From contig CANSRZ010000001.1 of assembly GCA_947649575.1 (NCBI GenBank), forward strand, positions 1 to 64,000: a stretch of 64,000 nt of DNA, written 5' to 3'. Made by a program: the position numbers and the translations under genes. Below are positions 1,881 to 9,353 of this stretch, piece by piece. Positions within the stretch are counted from its first letter, which is position 1, and the number at the start of each line of letters is the position of its first letter. The DNA comes from an uncultured Clostridia bacterium. GTDB lineage: Bacteria; Bacillota; Clostridia; Christensenellales; UBA1242. The notes beneath the pieces were generated by a model, which had not been told where the DNA came from, did no database searches, and saw nothing but the letters and a program-made list of their open reading frames with translations.

Positions 1881-1912
1881 TCTTGTTAGAAGATAGTAAA
1901 TTTAGGAGTGTT

Positions 1913-4873
1913 ATGGCAACTTTTAAGGTTTCTAAAAAGAATAAAAAAGAAAAAAACTTGACAAACACCAAAAAAATTGTTGGCGCTTCTTTGCTTGGCG
2001 TTTCTTCTGTTTTATTCCTTTTTTCTGCAACAGGGCTTTGGCCTTGGTTTCAAAGCGTTATTTTAGGTATTTTTGGAGTATTTTGCTACCCGCTCTGCAT
2101 AGTTTTGATGATTGTTGGACTAGCTCTCCTCAATAACCGCAAATATGTGATGAGCAAGCGTTATGCAATTTTTCTTTGTTTGAGCATTTTCTTCTTACTG
2201 GCTATAATACAACTTGCTATTGTTGGGAACAAGTATAACGCTGACGGAACTCAATACAATTTTTGGCAATATTGGGCTTTAAATTTTACTAAAAAATGGA
2301 CAGCAGGTGGTTTTATTGTTGGACTTTTGAACGCTGCTTTATTATTGCCTCTGAATTTGGCAGGAACTTATGTTATTTTGTGCCTTGCTTTTGTAATTTG
2401 TATGGCTTTCTTTGTTGAGGCACTTATATCTTATCGTAAAAACGCTAATCTTAATAGTCCTGTTAAAATCCAGATTAAGGATAAAAAGAAAAAATCGGCT
2501 GAAGTGGCTCGCGGTGAGGCTATGAAGCCTAAAGAAGAAGTTAATGTTGTGCTTAATGGTGAAATCGCCGACGCTCTTTCTCGTGAGCAAAATGCAAAGC
2601 GCAAACTGGGCTTGATGGGAAGTATGACAACTGAGGATAATTTTACAAACATGCCTCAACCTCAAATTCAAGAGAGAAGAAAGGGTGGAATTCCTGAGGG
2701 AACAAGCGTTAAGGAATATTTGCTTGAGCCTCCAAGTGTAGACATGGACGAATTTATGGCAAGACAAGAAAGGTTTGCAAGAGCGCACAACAAACCTGTA
2801 AAAATCGCAGGAGTTGAAGAAAGCAAAGCAAGCATTGATAATAATTTTGCTTCACTTAAAGAGCAAGAGCCTATTAGACCAAAACATCATATCTATGAAG
2901 AACAATATGATTTCTCTCAAAATTCAAGTGTTGTAAAACGCGGCAATTTGCCTGAAATTAAACCTGAAGAGCTTTTGTCAGAGGCTGATAATATCATCTT
3001 TAATGCAACGCGTGAAGAGCTTGCTGATATTTCTGCAAATGGCGATGATGACTTTATTATTCATCGAGAGCCACCTAAGCCAGCTAACGAAATTAATACA
3101 AATTTCACAAGCCGAAGCGACGGCTATATGAGAGAAAACTCTGGCTATAATCGTGATAGAAATGATAGTGAAAATCTTACGAGAAATCGCAATCTTGAAA
3201 GTCTTACAAACTTTAATGACAGAACTCAGCATAGAGAAAATATTGCTGAAAACAGCAGAGATTTTGCAAGACGGGAGGGGGGCTTATCTCGCGATAATTC
3301 CTTGCAAAGAGGCAGAGAAGACAGTTTGAACAGAACTGCCAATTTGCAAAACAATGACCGCTCTCGTAGATTTGAAACTGAAAACAAAAATCAAGATGAA
3401 GTTACTCGCTTTAAGCCATATAAATATAATCGTCCGTCAATTGACTTGATAACAACAAGGTCTGATGACCCTGCAATGTTGAACGATGAAGTTCCTGCAA
3501 AACGAGTTGCTCTTGAAAATGCGCTCGAAAAGTTTGGCGTTCCTGCAAAAGTGCAAAGCGTTGTTGTTGGCCCAGCCGTTACAAGATATGAAATCGCAAT
3601 GCCTGAGGGAATAAGCGTTAAGAAAATTTTATCTCTTGACGCTGACATCGCTTATGCCTTGTCTGCAAGAGGGCAAATCAGAATTGAAGCGCCTGTTCCA
3701 GGGCGTAGCATTGTGGGCATTGAAGTTCCAAATGATAAAAACCTTAAAGTTTCAATCAAAGACGTGTTGCAATCCAAAGAATATACAATGAGTCCATCTC
3801 CGCTTTGCTTTGCTCTTGGAAAAGACATCACTGGAACAGTTAAAGTTTGCAATCTTGCAAAAATGCCACACCTTTTGGTTGCTGGTACAACTGGCTCAGG
3901 TAAGTCTGTCTGCCTTAATGCTATCATTGTTTCTGTGCTTTACAAAGCGTCGCCTGATGATGTTAAATTTATCATGATTGACCCAAAACAAGTTGAGCTT
4001 TCTATGTATGAGGGCTTGCCTCATATGGTTGTGCCAAAGGTTATCACTGACGCAACAAAGGCTGTCAATGCTCTTCAATGGGCTGTTGATGAAATGGAAC
4101 GCAGATTTAATCTTATCAGCGAAGCGCGCGTGCGTAATATTGACGAATATAACAAAACCGACGATGTAACCTCTGGCAAAAAGAAAAAAATGCCATTCCT
4201 TGTTATCATCTTTGACGAGTTTGCTGACTTTATGCTTGTGGCTAAAAATGAAATCGAAGATAAAATTATGCGTCTTGCTCAAAAAGCCAGAGCGGCGGGT
4301 ATTCACCTTATTTTAGCCACTCAAAGACCGTCGACGGACGTTGTTACTGGAACAATCAAAGCCAACTTCCCAGCACGTATTGCCTTTAAAGTGGCAGGGC
4401 GTGTGGACAGTGAGGTTATCATGGGTGCAACTGGCGCTGAAAAACTGTTGGGCTATGGTGATATGCTTTATAAGCCGTCCGATTCTGCTCCTGCAAGAAT
4501 TCAAGGTTGCTTTATTGATACACCTGAAACTAAGGATATTGTGAACTATATCATTGAAAACAACGAAGAAACTTATGATGAAGACGCTTTAAATGCCATA
4601 AATGGCAATGGAAAACCTTCAAGCGGTGGCAATGATGACACTGCTGGCATGGACCCACTTCTTCCTCAGGCGCTTAAAATTTGTATCGACGTTGGCGTGG
4701 CTTCAACCACAATGGTTCAGCGTAAACTTTCAATTGGCTATCCTCGCGCGGCACGCATAATTGACCAAATGGAAGAGCGCGGTTATATCTCTTCAGCTGA
4801 GGGTTCTAAACAGAGAACTGTTTACACCAGCATTGAAGAATTCTACGAAATTTTTGGAGATACTTATGAATAA
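1913..4873 (+). CDS. ftsK: FtsK/SpoIIIE DNA translocase
   Basis: A 986-residue membrane-tethered dsDNA pump that moves chromosomes through the closing septum. About four TM segments lie in the first 185 residues. A long linker rich in Arg, Asn, Asp and Glu runs to about residue 500. The motor follows, with Walker A GTTGSGKS (about 658) and Walker B VIIFDEFADF. The C-terminal gamma winged helix (about 911-975) carries GYPRAARIIDQMEERGY, the element that reads KOPS/SRS polarity sequences. An upstream in-frame TTG at 1883 exists, but the SD TAGGAGTG favours ATG 1913. The stop overlaps rimO by 8 nt, so the genes are translationally coupled. The same gamma domain recurs in the PgsA homologue two genes on. 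Confidence 0.97.
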   Translation: MATFKVSKKNKKEKNLTNTKKIVGASLLGVSSVLFLFSATGLWPWFQSVILGIFGVFCYPLCIVLMIVGLALLNNRKYVMSKRYAIFLCLSIFFLLAIIQLAIVGNKYNADGTQYNFWQYWALNFTKKWTAGGFIVGLLNAALLLPLNLAGTYVILCLAFVICMAFFVEALISYRKNANLNSPVKIQIKDKKKKSAEVARGEAMKPKEEVNVVLNGEIADALSREQNAKRKLGLMGSMTTEDNFTNMPQPQIQERRKGGIPEGTSVKEYLLEPPSVDMDEFMARQERFARAHNKPVKIAGVEESKASIDNNFASLKEQEPIRPKHHIYEEQYDFSQNSSVVKRGNLPEIKPEELLSEADNIIFNATREELADISANGDDDFIIHREPPKPANEINTNFTSRSDGYMRENSGYNRDRNDSENLTRNRNLESLTNFNDRTQHRENIAENSRDFARREGGLSRDNSLQRGREDSLNRTANLQNNDRSRRFETENKNQDEVTRFKPYKYNRPSIDLITTRSDDPAMLNDEVPAKRVALENALEKFGVPAKVQSVVVGPAVTRYEIAMPEGISVKKILSLDADIAYALSARGQIRIEAPVPGRSIVGIEVPNDKNLKVSIKDVLQSKEYTMSPSPLCFALGKDITGTVKVCNLAKMPHLLVAGTTGSGKSVCLNAIIVSVLYKASPDDVKFIMIDPKQVELSMYEGLPHMVVPKVITDATKAVNALQWAVDEMERRFNLISEARVRNIDEYNKTDDVTSGKKKKMPFLVIIFDEFADFMLVAKNEIEDKIMRLAQKARAAGIHLILATQRPSTDVVTGTIKANFPARIAFKVAGRVDSEVIMGATGAEKLLGYGDMLYKPSDSAPARIQGCFIDTPETKDIVNYIIENNEETYDEDALNAINGNGKPSSGGNDDTAGMDPLLPQALKICIDVGVASTTMVQRKLSIGYPRAARIIDQMEERGYISSAEGSKQRTVYTSIEEFYEIFGDTYE

Positions 4874-6185
4874 AAAAGAACTTTTGACAAAAAAAGTTTC
4901 TGCAATCAGTTTGGGCTGTGATAAAAACAAAGTCGACCTTGAAAATATGCTTGGTCGACTTGCTTGTTATGGCTTTGAAATTTTGCCAGAGCCAACTGAG
5001 GCCGATATTGTTATTGTGAACACTTGCTCATTTATCGCGCCCGCAAAGGAAGAGGCTATTAATACAATTTTTGAAATGCTCGCTTTAAAAAGAAAGGGCA
5101 TTATAGAAAAAGTTATTGTTACAGGTTGTTTGCCACAGCGTTATTTGAATGAAATGAAAGACAGCATTCCTGAAGTTGACAGATTTGTGCTTTTGCGTGA
5201 AAATAAAGAAATTTGCCAGATAATTGAAAATCTTTATGATGTGGAACAATCAAAAATTTCAACAAAATTTGAAAGAGTTTTAACGTCTTCACCAAGTTAT
5301 GCTTATCTTAAAATTGCCGACGGGTGCAATAACGTTTGTGCGTTCTGTGCAATTCCTCGCATTAGAGGAAGATATGCCAGCACGCCTATGGGCGACCTTA
5401 TTTACGAAGCAAAAAATCTTGCTGCGCGTGGCGTGAAAGAACTTATTTTGGTGGCTCAGGATATTACAAGATATGGCGAGGATTTGTATGAGAAAAACTG
5501 TTTGATTGACCTTTGCGATAAGCTTTGCAAAATTAAAGGCATTGAATGGATACGCTTGCATTACACTTATCCTGAAAAAGTTGACAAAGAGCTTTTAGAC
5601 TACATATCACAAAATCCAAAGATGTGTAAATATATTGATATACCGCTGCAACATATTGACGACAATATTTTAAAAAGCATGCGCAGGCGTGTTGACGAGC
5701 AAGCCACTCGTGAACTTATAGAACTTTTGAAAGATTATCCAGAAATCAAAGTTCGTTCCACTTTTATTGTGGGCTATCCTGGCGAGGGACGCAAGGAGTT
5801 TAAAAAACTTTGCAAGTTCTTGCAAGAAGCTAGGCTTGATTATGTTGGCTTTTTCCCTTATTATAAAGAAGAGGGCACAAGCAGCTTTTATATCAAAAAA
5901 CATGTCAAGCAGCTTGTTAAAAATTTGCGTTTAAACAAGGTTAAAAATATACAAAATAATATTGTAAGTCAAAAAGCAAAAGAGCTTTTGGGTTCAACTA
6001 TCAAGGTTTTGGTGGATTATTTTGACGAAAACACTGGAGAATTTGTTGGTCACAGCAATTTTCTTTCTCCAACAGTTGACTTTGATGTCAAATTTGTGGA
6101 TAATGGAAATATACAGTTGAATACTTTTGTTGAGGTTAAGCTTTTTGATTTCGACGGAAAAAGTTATTCGGGGGAGGCATTATGA
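4866..6185 (+). CDS. rimO: Ribosomal protein S12 methylthiotransferase RimO
   Basis: A 439-residue radical-SAM enzyme that adds a methylthio group to an aspartate of ribosomal protein S12. The N-terminal UPF0004 domain has its three cluster cysteines (SLGCDKNK, NTCSFI, TGCLPQR). The radical-SAM cluster motif is CNNVCAFC. The C-terminal TRAM-type segment is present (about 375-439), unlike in the MiaB homologue at 11779. ATG 4866 is chosen because it overlaps the ftsK stop and the protein then begins like its family (KVSAISLGC); a longer frame from 4761 would only add ftsK-overlapping residues. It couples by ATGA-type overlap to pgsA. Confidence 0.95.
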   Translation: MNKKELLTKKVSAISLGCDKNKVDLENMLGRLACYGFEILPEPTEADIVIVNTCSFIAPAKEEAINTIFEMLALKRKGIIEKVIVTGCLPQRYLNEMKDSIPEVDRFVLLRENKEICQIIENLYDVEQSKISTKFERVLTSSPSYAYLKIADGCNNVCAFCAIPRIRGRYASTPMGDLIYEAKNLAARGVKELILVAQDITRYGEDLYEKNCLIDLCDKLCKIKGIEWIRLHYTYPEKVDKELLDYISQNPKMCKYIDIPLQHIDDNILKSMRRRVDEQATRELIELLKDYPEIKVRSTFIVGYPGEGRKEFKKLCKFLQEARLDYVGFFPYYKEEGTSSFYIKKHVKQLVKNLRLNKVKNIQNNIVSQKAKELLGSTIKVLVDYFDENTGEFVGHSNFLSPTVDFDVKFVDNGNIQLNTFVEVKLFDFDGKSYSGEAL

Positions 6186-7252
6186 ATTTACCTAATAAAA
6201 TAAGTTTGACAAGAATTTTTCTTATCCCTCTTGTTGTCTTTTTCTTTCTTGCGGATTTTATCCCTTGGGGAAAGTTTGTTGCAGGATTGATTTTTGTTAT
6301 TGCTTGTTTAACTGATTTTGTCGATGGCAAGATTGCAAGAAAATATAATTTGGTGACTGACCTTGGCAAGTTTTTGGATACAATTGCTGATAAAGTTTTG
6401 ATTATGGCAGGGCTTGTACTTCTTGTTGCAACGCCTGTTAAAGATGGCTTAACAGTTTTCACAAATCTTCAATGGCTTGGCATTATTTGCGCTATTATAA
6501 TTTTGGCAAGAGAGTTTGCCGTTTCTGCTTTAAGACAAATTGCTGCTGCAAAGGGCATTGTTCTTGCGGCTGATAAAAGCGGAAAAGTTAAAGCCGCGCT
6601 TCAAGATGTTGTGTTGTCTTTATATTTCTTTTTTGCTTTCTATGCAAGCACTTTTTATAACGGAACAATTCAAGCTCATAAAACTGCAAGTGCAATAATC
6701 TCAATAGTTTTAATCTGCGCCTTTGCAGTGACTACAATTTTGACTATCACTTCTGGTATTGAATATTTTGTGAAAAATAAACAGGTCTTTGCAAGTGAAA
6801 ATAAGGCTGTCAAAATTGAAGAGCCTGTGCAAGAGATTGTAAAGGTTGAAGAAAAGCCAGCACTTCAAGACCAAATGCAAGAAAAACCTGCTAATAAAAC
6901 TGTGGCAAAGAAATCTAATACAAAAAAGAAAACAGCAACAAAGGCTAAAAAAGCAAAGCCAACAGCACCTAAGCCAGCAAAACCTTTTTATAATAAGGCT
7001 GGTCAATTGCAAGAAAATGATGCTCGTGGCAGAGCTTTTGACGAACTTATTCCACAAGCACTTGATTTATTTAGCCAATCTGGCTGGGCATCAACAACAA
7101 TGCTTCAAAAACATATGGGCGTTGGATATCCTCGCGCTTCAAAGATTGTTGATCAAATGCAAGAACTTGGCTATATCTCAGCAGGCGAGGGCTTAAAAAC
7201 TCGCAACCTTTTGATAACAAAAGAGGAATTTGAAAATTTGCACAATAATTAA
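6182..7252 (+). CDS. pgsA: Phosphatidylglycerophosphate synthase fused to an FtsK-gamma winged helix
   Basis: Residues 1-200 form a complete CDP-alcohol phosphatidyltransferase, which makes phosphatidylglycerol phosphate from CDP-diacylglycerol in the membrane. The signature is intact: D45, D48-G49, A52-R53, G62, D66, D70, within several TM helices. After about 200 the protein continues for 156 residues not found in ordinary PgsA (usually 180-200 residues). First comes a Lys/Ala/Thr/Pro-rich linker (about 205-268), then a domain (about 283-345) closely matching the gamma domain of the FtsK encoded upstream: ASTTMLQ, GYPRASKIVDQM, LGYIS. The predicted result is a membrane lipid enzyme with a cytosolic DNA-binding head. 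It lies between rimO and cinA, the usual pgsA place. The fusion is in one uninterrupted frame. Confidence 0.92.
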   Translation: MNLPNKISLTRIFLIPLVVFFFLADFIPWGKFVAGLIFVIACLTDFVDGKIARKYNLVTDLGKFLDTIADKVLIMAGLVLLVATPVKDGLTVFTNLQWLGIICAIIILAREFAVSALRQIAAAKGIVLAADKSGKVKAALQDVVLSLYFFFAFYASTFYNGTIQAHKTASAIISIVLICAFAVTTILTITSGIEYFVKNKQVFASENKAVKIEEPVQEIVKVEEKPALQDQMQEKPANKTVAKKSNTKKKTATKAKKAKPTAPKPAKPFYNKAGQLQENDARGRAFDELIPQALDLFSQSGWASTTMLQKHMGVGYPRASKIVDQMQELGYISAGEGLKTRNLLITKEEFENLHNN

Positions 7253-7277: not shown

Positions 7278-8282
7278 ATGAAATATAAGATTTTTGTTTT
7301 TACTGATAACGTGTTTCAAAATGTTGATTTAGACTTAAATTCGCTTTCTCGAATTTTGGCCTCTTTTAATGTCACTGTCCAGATGTTTTCTATTATGGAA
7401 AACAATCAATCTAGTTTTGAAAATGCGCTCGGTCAAGGCGGAAATCTTATTTTGTTTTGCCAAAATCAGCAGATTGATAAAATTATCATTGACAATATTT
7501 CAAAGCTTAGCAATGATAAAAATATTATTGACGAAGAGGTCGTGATTTTTAAAAAAGATGGCAACAAAATTATTTTTGTGCCTTATGACAGCAATTGGCA
7601 AGCAATGCTTTCAAAAATAAATCTTAACGAAAATAGAGCTAACAAGACCTGTCAGTTTAAGATGTTCGGGATTTCTCGAACAAAAGTTTTGCAAGATATG
7701 CAATCGCTTGTAGGGCAGATTGATGACCTAAAATTTAGCGTTATCGGTAATGAACTTATGGTGGAATTGTTCGTTTCATATTCGGGAAGCGAAGATTTGA
7801 TTGATGAGGGGCAAATTAAAATTGCTTCAATGTTTAAAAATTATATTTATAGTGAAAACAGTTTGAACTTATCTCAAACTTTATGTCAACTTGCAAGGCT
7901 GAAAGATATGAAACTGTCTATCTGCGAGGGGATAACTGGTGGCGCGCTTATGAGTGAAATTTGTTTAAATAATCGTGGCGTCAGTCAAGGCATTGTGTTC
8001 AGTAAACTTAAATTTTTGAATAAAGAGTTGACTGCGGAAAATGTTTATGAGCAGACTTTGACAATGTTTAGTGACTCAACTGATACAAGCTTTGCAATCA
8101 ATGTGCAAGGAGAGTATGAAAATGATACTTTAACTTGCATTTACGCAATCGGAACTGCCAATAGTATTGATGTTTACAAAAATGTGTTCAAGGCAGAAAA
8201 AGAAAAAGCGTTTAAGTTTGCAATCAACGCAATTATGTTTAATATTGTTAAAAAAATGCGTCAAAATAGTTTGGAAATTTGA
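7278..8282 (+). CDS. Degenerate CinA-like protein
   Basis: A 334-residue protein in the conserved pgsA-cinA-recA position. CinA normally has an N-terminal MoCF/COG1058 pyrophosphatase domain and a C-terminal PncC (NMN amidohydrolase) domain. Here the N-terminal half is short and lacks recognisable motifs. The C-terminal half keeps a PncC-like pattern (KLSICEGITGGALMSEI), but the canonical ESCTGG reads EGITGG, so the nucleophilic serine is gone. Synteny and this remnant argue for a CinA descendant that has lost both enzyme activities. An SD (GAGGAG) precedes the ATG, and the frame is intact, so it is probably still made. The assignment rests mostly on position and one motif. Confidence 0.65.
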   Translation: MKYKIFVFTDNVFQNVDLDLNSLSRILASFNVTVQMFSIMENNQSSFENALGQGGNLILFCQNQQIDKIIIDNISKLSNDKNIIDEEVVIFKKDGNKIIFVPYDSNWQAMLSKINLNENRANKTCQFKMFGISRTKVLQDMQSLVGQIDDLKFSVIGNELMVELFVSYSGSEDLIDEGQIKIASMFKNYIYSENSLNLSQTLCQLARLKDMKLSICEGITGGALMSEICLNNRGVSQGIVFSKLKFLNKELTAENVYEQTLTMFSDSTDTSFAINVQGEYENDTLTCIYAIGTANSIDVYKNVFKAEKEKAFKFAINAIMFNIVKKMRQNSLEI

Positions 8283-8321: not shown

Positions 8322-9353
8322 ATGGAAAAGAAAGATTTAAAAAAAGATGCGCTTGAACAAGCGTTACTTCAAATTGAAAAGGAATATGGCAAAGGTGCAA
8401 TCATGAAACTTGGTGAGCAACCTGCTCAAAAAGTTGAGGTTATCCCAACTGGCTGTTTAACTCTTGACATGGCTCTTGGAATAGGTGGTGTGCCACGCGG
8501 AAGAATTATTGAAATTTATGGACCTGAATCATCAGGTAAAACAACAGTTTCTTTGCATATTGTTGCAGAGGCTCAAAAACTTGGCGGAACTGCTGCTTTT
8601 ATTGACGCTGAACATGCGCTTGACCCAAGTTATGCAGAAAAATTAGGGGTTAATCTTAAAGACCTCTATGTTTCTCAGCCTGATAATGGTGAGCAAGCTC
8701 TTAACATTGCCGAAATGCTTGTTAAATCTGCTTCCGTTGATATTATTGTTATTGACTCTGTTGCTGCGCTTACTCCAAAAGCCGAAATTGACGGCGAAAT
8801 GGGTGATAACCATGTTGGACTTCAAGCAAGAATGATGAGCCAGGCTTTAAGAAAACTTACTGGCATTGTTAATAAAACAAGAACTACAATTATCTTTATC
8901 AATCAGCTTCGTGAAAAAGTTGGAGTTATGTTTGGCTCGCCTGAAACAACAACAGGTGGCAAAGCGCTTAAATTTTATGCCAGCGTTAGACTTGATGTTA
9001 GAAAAACTGACACAATCAAAGATGGCACAAATATCATAGCAAACAGAACAAAAGTTAAGGTTGTTAAAAATAAGATGGCTCCTCCATTTAAGGTTGCCGA
9101 GTTTGATATCGTTTATGGCAAAGGCATTTCACAGGTGGGTTGTCTTGTTGACCTTGCTCTTAATGCAGGCATAATTGGCAAGTCAGGCTCATGGTTCTCT
9201 TATAACGATGAAAAAATTGCTCAAGGCAAAGAGAACGTTAAAGATTATCTTGAAAAAAATCCAGAAATGTATAACGAAATTATGGAAAAGGTCAAGGCTT
9301 CAGCAGGACTTGTTGAAACTGATGAAAGTGTTGACGAAGAAGACGGAGAATAA
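8322..9353 (+). CDS. recA: Recombinase RecA
   Basis: A 343-residue recombinase of typical length. It polymerises on ssDNA, drives strand exchange and stimulates LexA-type self-cleavage. Walker A is GPESSGKTT (about 67), Walker [13 protein letters not shown], and the loop L2 region contains [17 protein letters not shown]. It is preceded by AAGGAT at SD distance. No LexA-type box was recognised upstream, so SOS control is not shown. A strong terminator follows immediately, shared with the convergent PBP gene. Confidence 0.98.

Follow-up and report, generated by a model that had tools for sequence, protein, structure and literature searches.

We found that a phospholipid-synthesis enzyme of an uncultured Clostridia bacterium, a predicted CDP-diacylglycerol--glycerol-3-phosphate 3-phosphatidyltransferase (PgsA), carries the gamma domain of FtsK at its C terminus, and that this architecture is real, recurrent and selected. 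In the window, as we call the 64,000-nucleotide stretch of contig CANSRZ010000001.1 analysed here, it is encoded by one open frame of 356 aa on the forward strand (6182–7252), of which residues 1–168 match PF01066 (Pfam, E 6.4e-34; 118 bits against a cut-off of 22) and residues 287–346 match PF09397, FtsK_gamma (E 4.7e-17; 61.9 bits against a cut-off of 30.6). A catalytic part of six long helices (residues 1–203; 6182–6790, +), supported by Pfam, NCBIfam, motif, PDB match and AF2, is followed by a linker rich in Lys, Ala, Pro and Glu (residues 204–284; 6791–7033, +) and by the FtsK gamma winged helix (residues 285–350; 7034–7231, +; Pfam core at 7040–7219), recovered by PF09397, BLASTP and AF2. 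The full-length AF2 model predicts two folded parts joined by a disordered linker, with pLDDT below 50 at residues 223–267 and 276–282. The first-pass annotation of this DNA had described PgsA fused to an FtsK-type gamma domain through a Lys-rich linker, and both points are confirmed: a single frame holds PF01066 and PF09397, the protein passes the NCBIfam pgsA model TIGR00560 (123.3 bits against a cut-off of 109.1), and the linker is Lys-rich with a net charge of +9. Neither PF01580 nor PF17854 matched the 356-aa protein at E ≤ 0.1, and with the RecA-like motor absent it is classed, by sequence, as a homologue of FtsK gamma on PgsA and not as an FtsK/SpoIIIE DNA translocase.

Every genome compared here is a metagenome-assembled draft, a setting in which a join could arise from assembly or gene calling. 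Such an artefact is nevertheless extremely improbable, as the frames are unbroken in independently assembled genomes, including at least seven of 80 separately obtained named records (all labelled uncultured Clostridia or Clostridiales bacteria), and the fused sequences differ from one species to the next and so cannot be copies of a single error. The assembly error that the annotation had foreseen as a refutation falls away because many relatives carry the extension.

The CDP-alcohol phosphotransferase motif is D-x2-D-G-x2-A-R-x8-G-x3-D-x3-D, and the window has it intact (D45-x2-D48-G49-x2-A52-R53-x8-G62-x3-D66-x3-D70), with the motif columns invariant across the 43 PgsA rows aligned. AF2 places helices at residues 3–23, 30–55, 60–83, 94–124, 132–158 and 165–198, and S. 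aureus PgsA (PDB 7drj/7drk) matches at E 3.5e-26; catalytic part and motif are common to the window protein, the S. aureus enzyme and TIGR00560, whereas the 212-aa chain of 7drj ends where the window's linker begins and has no gamma. The window's own genome (95.43% complete) yielded one PF01066 match, as did 23 of the 24 other genomes searched (G084, with its pgsA cut, gave none). Among the 19 other fused genomes tested, the fused protein was the sole PF01066 protein in 18, and a contig edge cuts the gene in the remaining one. PgsA-gamma therefore appears to be the only detected CDP-alcohol phosphatidyltransferase of the cell, where "sole" means sole PF01066 protein and PLD-type cardiolipin synthases fall outside that family. 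Four loci (L118, L120, L122 and L189, of G065, G062, G076 and G648) have a first motif half one residue short, TDIDG against TD-x-x-DG; each is nevertheless the sole PF01066 match of its genome.

Compared with the gamma of the FtsK encoded upstream, the window's PgsA gamma shares 34 of 66 residues (52%; E 1e-19 in a single BLASTP comparison). The motifs that the annotation named as common to both are present, but its wording "nearly the same" was too strong. These two were the only gammas found in the genome at E ≤ 1e-3. Modelled alone, the domain reached an AF2 pLDDT of 85.5, and about 91–93 over residues 291–330 in the full-length model; the top rows for the gamma model in VIA-align were FtsK gammas. 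The predicted fold is a winged helix like that of solved FtsK gammas, in a model built without templates from an alignment rich in FtsK gammas. Five of the 19 in-genus fused copies pass the Pfam gathering score (the window, L116 at 66.6, L113 at 49.3, L120 at 34.8 and L190 at 32.9 bits), as does L182, the fused PgsA of G187 (38.6 bits); 13 of the 19 score below it at 13.7–29.6 bits, and L109 has no PF09397 match at E ≤ 0.1. L304 scored 28.8 bits (31.6 in the genome search), and the gamma of L305 was not recognised by PF09397. Such sub-threshold copies are assigned to gamma through their alignment with stronger members, not through their own scores.

The annotation had proposed a search for this architecture in related genomes, and we found it in the genus, in a sister genus and in another family. 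A profile of fused proteins (model length 285) matched 109 of 112 genus genomes, and 19 of the 112 carry the fusion: 18 reach at least model position 282 of 285 without a stop, and in G084 the fused end lies on a contig-edge fragment. The other 93 lack a full gamma match, some through a missing or cut pgsA; with three genomes unmatched and a few others giving only fragments or FtsK hits, the share among readable pgsA genes is slightly higher. A family draw of 297 genomes added at least one fusion (G187, sister genus) and an order draw of 396 at least two (G336 and G487, which belong to a single genus in another family), these counts outside the genus being lower bounds; in a phylum draw of 398 genomes, only the window's own protein reaches the gamma end without a stop among the matches listed. 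The fused species are gut bacteria with small genomes of roughly 1 Mb. Most relatives have no gamma, and relatives without the extension, which the annotation had also considered, do exist, including near ones (L004 and L005). Tails behind PgsA are highly variable across the genus. Long PgsA frames in G286, G315, G284, G471 and others showed no detectable gamma, and L235, L238 and L265 were rejected as full-length fusions, the match having crossed a stop into cinA. The near relatives without gamma L004, L005 (G002, G054) and L252 carry long Lys/Thr/Ala-rich tails that resemble histone H1 and could possibly bind DNA or lipid.

The genes ftsK, the source family of the gamma (1883–4873, +; PF01580, PF17854 and PF09397, with gamma at residues 923–982, 4649–4828), rimO (4866–6185, +; TIGR01125, 433 bits against a cut-off of 357) and pgsA follow one another in the order given by the annotation. 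Their ends overlap, the rimO ATG at 4866 preceding the ftsK stop (4871–4873) and the pgsA ATG (6182–6184) overlapping the rimO TGA (6183–6185), which suggests co-expression. On the 3' side of pgsA lie a CinA-like gene (7278–8282, +), which scores 33.5 bits with the NCBIfam model for competence/damage-inducible protein A, far below the cut-off of 379, and has no Pfam match at E ≤ 0.1, and then recA, starting at 8322 and recognised by eye from its translation.

The origin of the fused gamma was approached through trees of the locus and of the domain. In a RimO plus PgsA tree of 92 loci the fused label needs six changes, and one subclade of 30 rows has no fused member. Gamma trees, built on 71–72 columns with long branches, gather the 13 short-linker rows in one clade (100/100), group L182 with its own FtsK (98/84; 93/76 in a second tree) and group the two PgsA gammas of the other family (g92) with their own FtsK gammas (98/82); the relatives' set of 90 loci includes 10 whose FtsK tail was not recovered, and the tree with other-family copies was built after thinning the in-genus FtsK rows. 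Forcing in-genus (g1) and g92 PgsA gammas into one clade was rejected (p-AU 0.0154) and forcing all 21 PgsA gammas together was weakly rejected (p 0.0444), whereas a single in-genus origin was not rejected (18 rows, p 0.133; 19 rows, p 0.108). Because the joint clade is rejected and the in-genus clade is not, the trees point to at least two captures of gamma by PgsA, and perhaps three or more.

That the ftsK 3' end was duplicated locally, as the annotation had proposed, is supported in part, by relatives: in four of the genomes read (G039, G267, G179 and G368) ftsK is immediately followed by a separate gamma ORF, and the g92 gammas group with their own FtsKs. Such duplicates offer a possible source of the fused gamma. 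In G039, of the window's genus, a free-standing protein made up of two FtsK gammas sits between ftsK and rimO (L216:798-1406). For the window itself the idea of a recent duplication does not hold, since its PgsA gamma and ftsK gamma are 61% identical in nucleotides (pS 0.60, pN 0.32) and differ in third-position GC (0.296 in the PgsA gamma, 0.255 in the rest of pgsA, 0.541 in the ftsK gamma); nor does the gamma tree join the window's PgsA gamma to its own FtsK. The window copy thus appears old.

With ftsK 3' ends duplicating locally near pgsA, and PgsA tolerating C-terminal tails, a stray gamma might simply have been fused and carried along as a neutral by-product. The local duplicates, the wide variation of PgsA tails in the genus, the position of pgsA directly behind ftsK in the g92 genomes G336 and G487, and the gammas carried by several further proteins of the order all agree with this, yet we judge it distinctly unlikely. 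In 11 of 11 pairs of fused relatives the gamma pN (0.053–0.304) is well below pS (0.60–0.86), the 13 diverged rows retain the gamma as one clade, there appear to be at least two origins, PgsA is the sole detected enzyme of its kind, and the 73 non-fused pgsA genes read have no gamma remnants behind them (best 3.5 bits), as decay would leave. Gamma dN/dS was 0.14–0.33 in the five of 11 pairs where it was computable, and that of the catalytic part 0.03–0.12 where computable, with synonymous sites near saturation; the figures describe the relatives' copies, the window copy having no close fused relative. These values suggest that the gamma fold is kept under selection in fused relatives, and the arm is very probably functional and selected.

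What the arm binds was approached through the DNA-contact positions of E. coli FtsK gamma, as given in excerpts of PMC2533119, PMC2680272 and PMC5052618. At N1296, R1297, R1300, E1303 and E1306 the window PgsA reads P, R, K, D and Q, and each of these letters also occurs among 82 FtsK gammas (81 of the genus and one of G187): P in 82; R in 81 and K in 1; R in 66, K in 15 and M in 1; D in 82; and E in 69, T in 12 and Q in 1, respectively. At the KOPS-contact positions N1296, R1300 and E1303 the window's P, K and D are as in the genus FtsKs and unlike E. coli, from which the reference positions come. In 18 of 19 PgsA gammas the residues at R1297 and R1300 are both basic, with P kept at N1296 in 3 of 19 and an acid at E1303 in 8 of 19. 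In the short-linker clade, whose linkers span 10–15 residues, none of the 13 rows keeps P1296, the gammas carry net charges of −3 to −12, and the wing charge is −3 or −4 in 11 of 13; the window gamma is near neutral (−2, wing +1). The window's letters fit DNA reading at the same site, and the large clade fits a changed specificity or another ligand. DNA reading by the gamma in the window's species thus remains a tentative assignment, its chances slightly below even. The tethering to chromosomal octamers suggested by the annotation should not be taken as the general function, because the largest fused clade lacks FtsK-type contact letters. Candidate octamers in 144 kb of contig 1 gave counts of 3:0 (GGGCAGGG), 0:0 (GAGAAGGG) and 13:1 (AAGAGGGC); this skew is uncontrolled for gene strand or base skew, and we therefore claim no target motif.

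The same surface allows a different reading, as FtsK gamma binds XerD and DNA through one surface, with R1289 as a critical XerD contact (excerpts of PMC5052618). The window has Lys at that position, and the large clade has other residues there. The winged helix may no longer read DNA and may serve as a protein-protein or self-regulatory PgsA module, contacting for instance FtsK, a Xer recombinase or a PgsA partner subunit, with the window copy merely the least diverged. The short linker, acidic surface and altered contact letters of the 13-row clade, and a fold retained under selection, are compatible with it; the two basic recognition-helix positions, which 18 of 19 copies retain, and the FtsK-type letters, neutral charge and Lys-rich linker of the window copy, argue against it, and we hold it to be somewhat unlikely. 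On contig 1 the genome also encodes a Xer-type recombinase of 347 aa (L292:1060-2103), which among NCBIfam models scores highest with XerS (182 bits, below the cut-off of 267).

We favour, at about even chances, the view that the arm is a docking or regulatory device kept by selection, which links the making of acidic phospholipids to the apparatus for chromosome segregation and division that supplied the domain. The fold, the recurrence (19 of 112 genomes, G187, G336 and G487), the selection, the sole-enzyme status and the contact letters speak for it, and the many relatives without the domain, the divergent contacts and acidic charge of the 13-row clade, the substitutions at R1289 and the weak Pfam scores against it. 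The membrane-bound PgsA, presumably a dimer like known PgsA structures and with its arm on the cytoplasmic side, would carry a flexible arm tipped by the gamma winged helix. In the window's species its ligand would most likely be DNA, in the form of the oriented octamers of its own FtsK gamma, or a XerD-like contact made by that surface. With two gammas per dimer, the enzyme could then be kept close to chromosomal DNA at the membrane or, alternatively, DNA could be kept close to new phosphatidylglycerol. A bolder version, which we think rather unlikely, is that PgsA-gamma reads the same oriented octamers as FtsK. Chromosome position would then steer the only phosphatidylglycerol pathway, so that acidic membrane is made at the division site, where the terminus is being pumped; related lineages would have gained the fusion anew and later exchanged DNA for a protein as the ligand.

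The window gamma differs from that of FtsK/SpoIIIE (PF09397) in lacking a motor, in sitting on a lipid-synthesis enzyme and in having Lys for Arg at R1289 and R1300. RodZ, a separate protein of another HTH family whose gene adjoins pgsA, has a cytoplasmic HTH. This membrane protein (YmfM) is functionally tied to PgsA in B. subtilis (PMC5073135). FtsK gamma outside FtsK is already known from phages: excerpts of PMC8190038 describe an N-terminal FtsK_gamma on the small terminase of Sam46/Sam112, likewise separated from FtsK and joined to a different protein, but on a soluble phage packaging protein; its authors view that gamma as host-derived, and assign no role to the single gamma ORFs that they report in phages. 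By title and opening of the abstract, we found no PgsA-gamma fusion among the papers listed in searches of the openly licensed PMC literature. In the order, ten chosen proteins carry FtsK gamma outside FtsK, all above the Pfam cut-off (among them L183:1474-2214, L187:1803-3251, L188:1030-2607, L191:1190-2188, L197:1997-2917(-), L192:1846-2730, L184, L185 and L195), and four have partner domains above cut-off (HTH_3, Mrr_cat, PadR and LRR_5). The partners include an XRE-type HTH (along with a DnaA_N-like stretch that falls barely short of the cut-off), an Mrr-type endonuclease, PadR, LRR_5 with two gammas, and others.

FtsK gamma thus emerges as a reusable winged helix outside FtsK. To our knowledge, the links among acidic phospholipids, DnaA activity, the choice of division site and nucleoid position have long been indirect ones only. 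With a predicted phosphatidylglycerol synthase and a homologue of a domain that reads chromosome orientation in one polypeptide, in genomes of about 1 Mb and evolved more than once, a direct link becomes testable on purified domains.
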